Origin: Sphingobacteriaceae bacterium
Lineage (GTDB): Bacteria > Bacteroidota > Bacteroidia > B-17B0 > Aurantibacillaceae
DNA: 35,584 bases
Assembly: GCA_947453445.1 (NCBI GenBank)
Contig: CANGGP010000035.1
Coordinates: forward strand, 1 to 35,584
Reading direction: 5' to 3'
Shown here: one piece after another, positions 1,163 through 17,313 of the stretch
How positions within the stretch are numbered: the stretch's first letter is position 1
Layout of the letters: every line of letters starts with the position of its first letter
The notes under the pieces: model-generated
Databases searched by the model: none
Told to the model about the DNA's origin: nothing
What the model saw: only the letters and a program-made list of their open reading frames with translations
Program-made: the position numbers and the translations under genes

Positions 1163-1295
1163 GGGCGTTTCCCATGTATCAAAAAAAGCCACTCGAAACA
1201 TTTGGAAGCTTTTTTTGCTTCATGGGTCGGGCTGTCGCTACTCGCTTTGCGCCGAAAAGGCGCAAGAGCTCAAACAAACGCTCCATCCCTAACGC
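1163..1295 (+). repeat. Structured intergenic repeat, copy A
   Basis: This element fills most of the 356-nt gap between the divergent DUF5606 and aminopeptidase P genes. It starts GGGCGTT and ends CCCTAACGC. Three nested helices are visible: closing stem GCGTT (1165-1169)/AACGC (1291-1295); hairpin 1, CCCATG (1171-1176)/CATGGG (1221-1226) continued inside by AAAAAAAGC (1181-1189)/GCTTTTTTT (1208-1216); and hairpin 2, TTGCGCC (1247-1253)/GGCGCAA (1259-1265) with a GAAAA loop. Between the hairpins are GGGTCGGG and CGCTTTGC. A second copy at 15444-15591 has the same layout with different base pairs. An 89-codon reading frame here is not considered coding. It may be a non-coding RNA, a REP-like DNA element or a transcribed processing structure. 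Confidence 0.75.
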
Positions 1296-14766: not shown

Positions 14767-15300
14767 TTAATTTTTATTAAACTTTATTTTATTCAATTGT
14801 TCCCACATGGGGTTGTTTGGCTCTTCCTCTTTTTCAGATTCAATTACCAAGTTATCTAATTTGCTCAGCGTTTCGGCATCACAAACAAATTCTTTTTTAT
14901 CTAATTCGCAAGGTACACGCCTGGCCGGAATGGCTAGAATAATGTACTCATACAAATATTGTGAAACATCAAACTCATCTTGTCCTTCAGGAATTACCAA
15001 TATTTCATCGGTACTTTCATCGGGGTTACCATGTTTAATCACCAAATGTTCTTCGGTTTCAACGGGGTAATCAAATGCTTTTAAACACCTGTCGCAATCA
15101 ACACCCACCGTACCTTCAATATTAAATTGCATTTGCAGCAAATTATTTTGTTTGGTAAGGGTGGCATCAACCAGCAAATGTGCTTTTTGAATGTCACTGT
15201 TTTCAATACTCTTAAAGAACGCATCGTTTACCTCAAACTCAAAGTCGTGTAAACCAACCGACAAACCGCCAAACTGAACTATGTACTGACTTTTGCCCAT
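14767..15300 (-). CDS. yceD: YceD/DUF177 family protein
   Basis: A 177-residue protein from the ATG at 15300. The frame extends 8 codons to a TTG at 15324, but that TTG lies inside the -7 promoter box, so it cannot be the start. The DUF177 hallmark is the block [17 protein letters not shown] (around residues 67-83), followed by an acidic stretch ([10 protein letters not shown]) and [15 protein letters not shown]. YceD is encoded beside rpmF across bacteria and in plants is implicated in 23S rRNA accumulation, so a role in large-subunit assembly is likely. Two CxxC-like cysteine pairs may bind metal. It heads the rpmF operon. Confidence 0.93.
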
Positions 15301-15321
15301 GCCTTTTTTTAAAAAGGACTG

Positions 15322-15349
15322 CAAATATACAGTTTTTTTTGATTTGCAA
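15322..15349 (-). promoter_or_regulatory. Promoter of the yceD-rpmF operon
   Basis: On the minus strand, TTG (15347-15349), a 17-nt spacer and a perfect -7 box TATATTTG (15322-15329). The transcription start would be near 15315, 15 nt before the ATG at 15300. The spacer is shorter than the 19 nt of other promoters here. Confidence 0.6.
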
Positions 15350-15443: not shown

Positions 15444-15591
15444 GGGCGTGCCCCCCAATAAGCAAATTATTATTTTGTTTTAGGTATGCTTATTGGGGGT
15501 CGGGTCACTGCGGGCTCCGCTTTGCTCTGGTTTTTTGAGGCGATAAAAGAACATCGCCTCAAAAGAACTAAACCCTTCGTGCCCCTCACGC
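15444..15591 (+). repeat. Structured intergenic repeat, copy B
   Basis: This second copy of the element at 1163-1295 sits in the 426-nt gap 15301-15726. It runs from GGGCGTG to CCCTCACGC. The same three helices are present: closing stem GCGTG (15446-15450)/CACGC (15587-15591); hairpin 1, CCCCCAATAAGCA (15452-15464)/TGCTTATTGGGGG (15487-15499); and hairpin 2, TTTTGAGGCGAT (15533-15544)/ATCGCCTCAAAA (15553-15564). GGGTCGGG and CGCTTTGC lie between the hairpins as in copy A. All stems differ in sequence from copy A yet stay fully paired. In the rest of the gap I see only a 16-nt palindrome (aaaaacaattgttttt, 15603-15618). Confidence 0.8.
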
Positions 15592-15726: not shown

Positions 15727-17313
15727 TTATTCCTTCACAAACTTACCCGAATAAATGTTATAGTTTGTTTTTATTTCAAAAAAGTACAGGCCTTGCGGAA
15801 AGTAGGTAAGGGCTATTTTGTTGTAATTTATATATTGTTTGTTGTGATAGACACATTTCCCGTCAACACTCATAATTGAAATGGCATAACTGTATTCTAA
15901 AGGGCAATCAAATTGAATTTGCCCAGTGGCTGGATTTGGAAAAGCTTTAACCACATTTTTATTAATGCGGCCATTTTCGTGAATATTTACTGCATTATAA
16001 TTACCATTAGAATCTAATTTTAAAAGAAAAGACTCGCTTATACCCGGCATGCCTTTGATTGCCGAGGCGGTAGAATCAAAACGGATACCTGAAATTAAAT
16101 AACCCCCATCGGCGGTAAAAATTAAACTTCGTGGTTGGTAATACATATCCCCTCCATAATATTTCTTAAATAATACATTTCCCAAAGTGTCAATTTTCAC
16201 AAGCATTATTTTTGAGCGCATGTTTAAGGTAGGGTTAAAATTGCCAGAACCCAAGCTGTCAACTCTAGCGACAAATGCAATATTATTTTTATCAACATCA
16301 AAAAATTTTCCTACCTCGGAAAAAGTAGTTTCATAAAAATCGTTTCCGAAAAAGTGAGATTTTATCACGTTCTTATTTTGATCTTTTATAGCTAAAACTA
16401 TCCCATAATGAGAATTAAATTGGGGAAAATTTCCTTTAAAAAATCCCAATTGATTTCCAAAAATCAAATATTTAGTTTCACTGATTTGTGCCAGATATGG
16501 CATCGGATATGATTTACACTGAATTATTGCCGTTTGTAAGGGGGAAGTGTTAAAAGTGTACGTTCCTAAATTACTGTAAGTATCACAAGAAACTGCTATT
16601 AAATTCGTGTCTAAAATTAAACTAGTTCTATCGCCTGAATTTGGCTGAATTGGCTGACACGGAGCTGGTAAATCCTGTCCTGGAATAAATATTTTGCCCT
16701 GTACAAATGAAATTGGGTTTGCGTAAACAGAGCTAATTCTAATTGAATCAATTTTATTAAGTTGATTGCTAAGTTTGAATATTTTCTCTATTCCAAAAGG
16801 AAAATTAATAAAAGACTCATGACCATATAAAAAACCACCCGGATATTTTACAAGGCTCGGATGGTCATAATTATTATCTATTGTAATTCTATTTTTGGAA
16901 ACAACATGATAATTTAAATCGAAAGTAACTATAGACACTGAATCTCCATAGCATACATCAACACCTGTGTATCCGCAAGTGTAACTATTGTTAGCGCACG
17001 TCCAATAAAGTTTTGAATTAAATTCGATTGGCCCCGAAAAATTAAAAGCGTGATTTTTCGGTAAAACAATACTATCCTTCAATTGTAAATTTTTGCCAAA
17101 CACAAAGATGATAGGTTGTATAACATTTTGATTGGCCGAAATAGGGTAACGAATGGAATAGACCCTATACAAAGAGTCTTTAGGATATTTTAAAACTGAA
17201 TGGTAATAAATTCTTGGATTACTCTGACTTAAGCCAAAGAATTGTCCTTTTGTGTTATTTGAAATTAACAACAAAAAAAGTAAAACCTTCGCTGCAATAC
17301 TTTTAAGAGACAT
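15727..17313 (-). CDS. T9SS type A sorting domain protein, function unknown
   Basis: A 528-residue secreted protein with a signal peptide (MSLKSIAAKVLLFLLLISNNTKGQ) and a T9SS type A tail (VKAFPNPATGQIQFDCP, PQGLYFFEIKT, then the basic end SGKFVKE). Residues ~100-140 contain a Cys cluster (TCANNSYTCGYTGVDVC). The middle has beta-propeller-like segments of the kind common in T9SS cargo, such as LVKIDTLGNVLFKKYYGG followed by TADGGYLISG. No catalytic motif is seen. It should be exported to the cell surface or medium. It starts 3 nt after the stop of the lipoprotein gene, so the two form one operon. Base composition is AT-richer than the housekeeping genes nearby. Confidence 0.88.
   Translation of the reverse strand: MSLKSIAAKVLLFLLLISNNTKGQFFGLSQSNPRIYYHSVLKYPKDSLYRVYSIRYPISANQNVIQPIIFVFGKNLQLKDSIVLPKNHAFNFSGPIEFNSKLYWTCANNSYTCGYTGVDVCYGDSVSIVTFDLNYHVVSKNRITIDNNYDHPSLVKYPGGFLYGHESFINFPFGIEKIFKLSNQLNKIDSIRISSVYANPISFVQGKIFIPGQDLPAPCQPIQPNSGDRTSLILDTNLIAVSCDTYSNLGTYTFNTSPLQTAIIQCKSYPMPYLAQISETKYLIFGNQLGFFKGNFPQFNSHYGIVLAIKDQNKNVIKSHFFGNDFYETTFSEVGKFFDVDKNNIAFVARVDSLGSGNFNPTLNMRSKIMLVKIDTLGNVLFKKYYGGDMYYQPRSLIFTADGGYLISGIRFDSTASAIKGMPGISESFLLKLDSNGNYNAVNIHENGRINKNVVKAFPNPATGQIQFDCPLEYSYAISIMSVDGKCVYHNKQYINYNKIALTYFPQGLYFFEIKTNYNIYSGKFVKE

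Follow-up and report, generated by a model that had tools for sequence, protein, structure and literature searches.

The window, that is, the whole stretch of 35,584 nucleotides that was analysed, carries two copies of a folded intergenic element, at 1163-1295 and 15444-15591, both read on the + strand and both where the first-pass annotation had located them. By Pfam assignment of the neighbours, copy 1 separates two divergent genes, one of DUF5606/DUF6852 (527-1066, − strand) and one aminopeptidase P-like (1366-2712, + strand), and copy 2 is flanked by a YceD gene (14767-15324, − strand) and by one whose product has a T9SS sorting tail (15727-17313, − strand). The parts of the two copies are as follows, with the evidence for each in parentheses; R1 and R2 are covariance models, both of which include copy 1.

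1163-1295, +: copy 1, class A, whole unit GGGCGTT...CCCTAACGC (sequence; R1 and R2 matches)
1165-1169, +: copy 1, 5′ strand of stem P1, GCGTT, with its partner at 1291-1295 (stem covariation across copies)
1171-1226, +: copy 1, hairpin 1 (P2), CCCATG/CATGGG and then 9 bp, AAAAAAAGC/GCTTTTTTT (sequence, covariation, DNA fold)
1229-1234, +: copy 1, 5′ strand of P3, GGG-C-T-G; C1232 is opposite T1286 (the constant C.T mismatch) and G1234 pairs with C1284 (the X-Y pair) (X-Y pairing and C.T counts)
1244-1269, +: copy 1, hairpin 2 (P4), GCT-TTGCGCC/GGCGCAA-G-AGC, with extrahelical G1266 (sequence, covariation)
1291-1295, +: copy 1, 3′ strand of P1, AACGC, the 3′ end of the unit (covariation)
15444-15591, +: copy 2, class B (R1 without copy 2 in the model, E 4e-9; R2 with copy 2 in the model, E 5e-5; window search)
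15446-15450, +: copy 2, 5′ strand of P1, GCGTG, with its partner CACGC at 15587-15591 (sequence, covariation)
15452-15499, +: copy 2, hairpin 1 (P2), 13 bp, CCCCCAATAAGCA/TGCTTATTGGGGG (sequence, DNA fold)
15502-15508, +: copy 2, 5′ strand of P3, GGG-T-CAC, with its partner GTG-C-CCC at 15579-15585; T15505 opposite C15582 is the swapped form of the C.T mismatch (sequence, DNA fold)
15530-15568, +: copy 2, hairpin 2 (P4), GTT-TTTTGAGGCGAT/ATCGCCTCAAAA-G-AAC, with extrahelical G15565 (sequence)
15587-15591, +: copy 2, 3′ strand of P1, CACGC, the 3′ end of the unit (sequence, covariation)

The three-way junction

The first-pass annotation had quoted the closing stems (GCGTT/AACGC versus GCGTG/CACGC), hairpin 1 (6 + 9 bp versus 13 bp) and hairpin 2 (TTGCGCC/GGCGCAA versus 12 bp) correctly. 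Its layout overlooked the P3 helix (GGG-C-T-G/C-A-T-CCC in copy 1, GGG-T-CAC/GTG-C-CCC in copy 2), which makes the fold a three-way junction: P1 (5 bp) is its closing stem, hairpin 1 is one arm, and P3, which ends in hairpin 2, is the other. An unpaired GG precedes P1, one base leads from P1 to hairpin 1, and TC leads from hairpin 1 to P3. The P3 helix consists of GGG/CCC, a constant C.T mismatch (C.T in 40 and T.C in two of 42 aligned mixed copies), a T-A pair and a variable X-Y pair; in copy 2 it is formed in the DNA fold but with the GGG shifted by one base. The internal loop between P3 and hairpin 2 has CGCTNC on both strands in classes A, C and D. The extrahelical G of hairpin 2, three base pairs above the base in both window copies, is present in class A and class B copies and in 24 of 30 class D copies, where it is an extra G on the 3′ strand; none of the 30 was seen without it, three being other and three lacking the motif. 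The sequence CGCTTTGC, which had been taken as part of the shared layout, is common to copies 1 and 2 by coincidence: their inner classes differ, and it is absent from seven other full class B copies.

The element is about 75-230 nt long. Its outer stems in this genome include GCGTT/AACGC, GCGCA/TGCGC, GCGTG/CACGC, GCCTG/CAGGC, GCGCC/GGCGC, GCACA/TGTGC, GCGCT/AGCGC and GCGAG/CTCGC, and elsewhere, in genome G017, the constant GGG/CCC of P3 is replaced by GCG/CGC.

Covariation of the paired bases

The covariance model R1 was built from eight class A copies, with copy 1 included and copy 2 left out, and it finds the class B copy 2 in the window. In the alignment of the eight copies (A2), 93.3% of the cells pair, both sides have changed in 15 of 27 pairs, and none of 500 shuffles reaches any of five covariation measures. 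In 42 mixed copies, 95.8% of the cells pair and both sides have changed in 69 cells, where shuffles average 24; pair types are no more numerous than in the shuffles. For P1, the statistics of the mixed-copy alignment (A4) are biased, since presence of this stem was a condition for extracting the rows (92 passed). An unbiased test was made with a core pattern that is silent on P1 and on Y. It has 133 matches, from which 14 were dropped because the 3′ end was missing or there was too little upstream sequence, leaving 119 that belong mainly to classes C and D. The X-Y pair is Watson-Crick in 116 of the 119 (AT 58, TA 51, GC 4, CG 3; the others are AA, CT and GT), against a mean of 52 and a maximum of 68 in 1000 shuffles, and an exact P1 partner is present in 106 of them (13 different stem sequences), where 500 shuffles average 35 and never exceed 47; the copies are kin, so these counts are not to be read as probabilities. 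Each strand of both window copies folds better than all 200 of its dinucleotide shuffles (z-scores of −3.5 and −6.5 with DNA parameters, −3.8 and −5.2 with RNA parameters).

The fold of the element is under selection: paired bases change together, and the fold is therefore the preserved feature. The earlier proposal of a selected structure of RNA or single-stranded DNA, as opposed to a decaying repeat, is upheld by many compensatory changes in this genome and in other species, where genome-wide copies could have shown none.

Distribution, junctions and genomic context

The search by covariance model that the first-pass annotation had suggested turned up many copies in this genome and in other Bacteroidota. 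BLAST of this genome finds 13 places with copy 1 as the query and 19 with copy 2. Among the best 150 of 1478 candidates in this genome, R1 gives 60 rows at E ≤1; 17 of these overlap a better hit on the opposite strand, and of the 43 places that remain, 39 are at E ≤0.001. Together with seven full-length class B places outside the R1 set, copy 2 among them, this makes about 50 places in the genome, 46 of them strong. Matches to R2 are present in 50 of 80 genomes, this one included, and in at least 45 of 296 genomes drawn from the phylum (best 12 candidates per genome); copy numbers are patchy within the genus. In the named species collection, the core pattern occurs in at least 120 stretches, nearly all from Bacteroidota, with hosts that include Flavobacterium, Algibacter, Aquimarina, Pedobacter and Chitinophagaceae, and the first-pass annotation was thus right that similar elements occur in this phylum. 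The genome of the window is itself assigned to Bacteroidota by the T9SS genes in the window and by the named genomes that have the element in common with it.

Five of the core-pattern matches are in Spirochaete MAGs (L141, L148, L157, L165, L193), by either horizontal transfer or binning error. Two other odd hosts are probably due to chance or contamination: the match in a Rickettsiales MAG (L104) lacks the structure, and that in a Limnohabitans MAG (L219) is cut by the end of the stretch. Ten viral contigs match the core pattern, one of which (L228) has the same unstructured sequence as L104. Another (L226) carries two copies of the element, one near each end, and reads by eye as a Mu-type phage with transposase and ATPase genes. 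No match to window copy 1 was found in the plasmid and phage collections. The suggested comparison with Rfam families such as Flavo-1 came out negative: neither Flavo-1 nor any other family matched the window at the gathering score, and a scan of ten loci at E ≤1 gave only two miRNA matches, far below the cut-offs. A description of the family was not found in the open-access literature searched (the PMC open library, in which most subscription papers are missing), including passages of PMC3733652, PMC2864571 and PMC5771137.

Among 47 elements of ten genomes, there are 30 pairs within a genome that have an internal identity of at least 80%; they come from seven genomes, and 21 of the 30 come from one Aquimarina genome. 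The identity of their 5′ flanks, 0.41-0.64, is at the random level (random mean 0.53, maximum 0.65), and the 3′ flank is above the random level in six of the 30. In the genome of the window, the class A copies L003-L005 have unrelated flanks. The 5′ junction of 92 copies is A(.61)T(.78)T(.80)T(.77)|GG, the 3′ junction is A or G in.92, and the flanks do not covary. No target duplication of 3-9 nt was found in any of the 92. Similar copies at unrelated 5′ flanks and the absence of target duplication indicate a dispersed mobile repeat. It begins sharply at T-rich|GG and usually ends at P1, the 3′ boundary being leaky in some cases, an asymmetry consistent with a process initiated at the 5′ end. 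No pair of empty and filled orthologous sites was found in the DNA compared, and so insertion without duplication rests on the statistics of the flanks.

Doublets of the element in this genus, counted by eye among the matches listed, are tail-to-tail in at least 13 cases (14 to about 150 nt apart) and direct in at least two (tandem arrays), with none head-to-head within 300 nt. No clear doublet was found in 120 named loci of other genera searched with a strict descriptor (112 hits, three on reversed sequence). In two tandem arrays, L023 (G000:C2, near 35.6-36.1 kb, in the genome of the window) and L251 (G009:C244), each repeat comprises the element and the 3′ end of the gene upstream of it, and the tails of these genes are thereby duplicated.

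Two of 108 copies in named loci fall inside genes. The 92 copies with both neighbours known comprise 25 in convergent, 42 in tandem and 25 in divergent contexts, the corresponding gaps numbering 84, 310 and 98. In a larger set of 173 elements, a minority of which may be false since the descriptor that selected them has 198 hits versus 28 on reversed sequence, tandem contexts place the element in the same orientation as the genes in 53 cases and in the opposite orientation in 42 (p 0.30). No replication-strand bias was seen against GC-skew replichores in a test of low power with noisy skew (10 of 18 concordant in G001 and 11 of 21 in G274; G179 was left out because its skew is too irregular). 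The orientations on contig G274:C1 come in long runs, eight minus at 0.92-2.21 Mb followed by six plus, that do not match the GC-skew replichores.

No gene recurs beside the copies in the sets searched. Among 126 neighbour proteins (from 126 of 187 stretches, cut to at most 330 aa), 183 Pfam families were found, none in more than three. An all-against-all BLAST of 650 stop-free stretches of at least 70 aa from 71 loci gave no recurrent neighbour; the larger clusters are the element itself, duplicate loci, secretion tails (by eye) and one orthologous locus. No gene carried inside split copies was found among the orphan half-elements listed, many of which are misses of the strict pattern. At two pairs of matching sites in different genera (L375/L379 and L374/L386), inner or outer hairpins differ, and one hairpin 1 was found with different inner classes. 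From these comparisons of sequence, hairpin modules seem to have been swapped while the fold was kept, an alternative for the matching sites being independent insertion at the same place.

Mobilisation and known systems

The explanation preferred here, with roughly even confidence, is that the copies are mobile repeats, non-autonomous and dispersed between genes, in which the conserved three-way junction defines the unit, and that an enzyme acts on them in trans as folded single-stranded DNA, as in REP/IS200-type systems. Such an enzyme would recognise the folded strand by the P1 foot, P2, and the mismatch and loop of P3, would cut after the T-rich (ATTT) junction, and might then move or copy the strand, by analogy with REP/IS200-type elements. 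Several observations count against this explanation: no enzyme was found; the 3′ flank is shared in six of 30 pairs; in G017 a larger unit with inverted termini carries the element along; and a lagging-strand mechanism would predict a replication-strand bias, whereas none was seen in the two chromosomes compared, in the low-power test above. A role of the Y1/RAYT proteins of these genomes as the mobilising enzyme is not supported. It can be proposed tentatively, at well below even confidence, that the mobiliser is neither a Y1/RAYT nor a DDE protein and that the element is a new, structure-addressed mobile repeat found across the phylum, with a covarying single-stranded DNA three-way junction as its sole conserved identity and with hairpin modules swapped in place.

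The alternative that survives best, unlikely as it is, is that the element is an atypical REP of a Y1 transposase (TnpA-REP/RAYT), for example of subclass 2.6 of the Bacteroidetes, and is mobilised by that protein. According to PMC6006769, subclass 2.6 is mostly from Bacteroidetes and is flanked by atypical secondary structures, of which copies occur elsewhere in the genome. The T-rich 5′ foot, the absence of target duplication and the tail-to-tail doublets would all suit such a protein. The sole element found in genome G062 (L100, G062:C3) is 192 nt from a Y1 gene, and in G017 one element precedes a RAYT match by about 310 nt. However, L100 is the only such pair among 31 Y1 loci searched with R1 and R2 for an element within about 1.5 kb, a search of 30 RAYT loci with R2 gave one weak hit (E 0.87), and the element is present in three of 20 wider stretches, at 0.3-2.4 kb. 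The RAYT model NF047646 has a match in 16 of 17 genomes with at least ten copies matched versus 49 of 63 others, a weak lean in favour of the Y1/RAYT alternative; PF01797 is present in 14 of the 17 high-copy genomes versus 45 of the 63 others, and G057 (33 matches) and G063 (nine) have neither family. A Y1 gene may have been lost after the element spread.

The RAYTs that were sampled own other, simple palindromes, which lie beside the gene in G000 (the genome of the window), G017 and G002 and inside the gene in G002, G036, G038 and G039. Those inside the gene are of the CCCT..AGGG type, as in subclass 2.4, for which PMC6006769 describes a palindrome inserted inside the gene. In the genome of the window, a RAYT-like gene (L018, G000:C1:24879-28139, at 1435-2168) lies between palindromes GCGTTGCGGTTCCAAA.. 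and GCGTAGGTTTCCAAAG.., and a 156-aa Y1 protein with the motif Y---Q--HH (L017, G000:C25:33209-36553, at 1387-1857, − strand) resembles the orphan TnpA subclass 1.2 as described in PMC6006769.

It is less likely again that the element is a structured RNA, either a small RNA or a cis-regulatory element, that is multicopy by happenstance. The strong covariation, the conserved loop sequences, the matching locations in two pairs of genera and the RNA z-scores of the window copies would all be expected of an RNA. Against it, similar copies sit at unrelated sites, Rfam has no match in the window or the ten loci, and orientation to genes is not fixed, as the tandem contexts show. The few wobble pairs and the equal numbers of G.T and A.C mismatches favour folded DNA over RNA. 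The X-Y pair is a wobble in one of 119 copies, and 1802 stem pairs of 151 clustered elements, chosen with the descriptor described above and likewise including a possible minority of false ones, have 52 mismatches (G.T 17, A.C 17, others 18); in an RNA transcribed from one strand, G.U should be better tolerated than A.C. Of the two options left by the first-pass annotation, RNA is accordingly the less supported on the grounds of wobbles, mismatches and orientation. Predicted folding energies lean weakly to DNA. The P1 stem is in the minimum-energy fold of four of five copies with DNA parameters (both window copies, L105 and L120) and of two of five with RNA parameters (L105 and L002), and so is missing from the RNA fold of both window copies. 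This support is weak because P1 is missing from the DNA centroid of copy 1, L002 has P1 in its RNA but not its DNA minimum-energy fold, and L120 (class C) folds no better than shuffles with either set of parameters.

The element is very unlikely to be an ordinary MITE of a DDE transposase in which the fold is incidental cargo. In G017, one or both flanks of a larger unit are retained in 23 of the 24 fetched loci (L313-L336); the unit has imperfect inverted termini of about 26 bp, and four or five sites have an 8-bp or near-8-bp duplication (both by eye). The termini of the G017 unit are GGGTCAAGCGGAAAAG../..TTCCGATTGATCC, and the element there is hitchhiking in a MITE-like unit. In contrast, bare copies in the genome of the window, in Aquimarina and in other genomes have neither such termini nor a duplication, and an end stem with 13 sequences and compensatory changes is not what selection by a DDE enzyme would be expected to yield.

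The notion of a bidirectional intrinsic terminator or attC-like recombination site is scarcely credible, despite GC-rich stems located in gaps and a mild convergent excess (25 elements in 84 gaps versus 42 in 310 tandem gaps). In 92 copies, the + strand has a T run before the stem and A or G after it, the A run after the stem being on the − strand; there is thus no U tract behind the stem on either strand, and an intrinsic terminator was rejected. Integron attC sites are folded single strands with extrahelical bases and have the consensus RYYYAAC...GTTRRRY. An attC site was rejected because P1 is variable (13 stems) and GTT and AAC, where present, are in the reverse order of this consensus; moreover, copies in named loci are mostly solitary.

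The element, on the preferred explanation REP-like and mobilised in trans, is a widespread component of Bacteroidota genomes, undescribed as far as the searches reach, with very clean covariation and signs of a DNA fold. If it is recognised by an unknown enzyme, the copies are natural substrates, their ends defined and a foot motif present, with which the enzyme could be fished out; if instead RAYTs act on it and this has gone unrecognised, the biology of REPs extends to branched folds.

Compared to known systems, the element is like Flavo-1 and other Rfam RNAs of Bacteroidetes in phylum, intergenic position and possession of a structure, and differs in having no match in the Rfam scans. It is like attC in being a folded strand with extrahelical bases, which serve attC as a recognition feature, whereas its end motifs are variable and in reverse order, its fold is branched and no cassette arrays were seen. 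It is like MITEs in being a small, non-autonomous, dispersed unit, of which the G017 subfamily is carried in a MITE-like unit, whereas the bare element is without ordinary inverted termini and target duplication. With the atypical structures of TnpA-REP subclass 2.6, as far as the description in PMC6006769 allows comparison, it shares Bacteroidetes hosts, a non-canonical structure and multiple copies, whereas the RAYT loci tested in this clade are not regularly flanked by it. A REP is a hairpin of 20-40 nt with the foot GT[AG]G, and RAYT-linked REPs have their cognate transposase; the element is a three-way junction of a much greater size with the flank ATTT|GG, and no cognate transposase gene is regularly beside its copies. 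The defining features that were tested for RAYT-linked REPs (foot and flanking gene), MITEs and attC are thus absent, and the element nevertheless works like a REP/REPIN: as with the REPs and REPINs of TnpA-REP (RAYT), its copies are short, folded, intergenic dispersed repeats with a conserved 5′ foot and no target duplication seen, and in this genus they form tail-to-tail inverted doublets as REPINs do.
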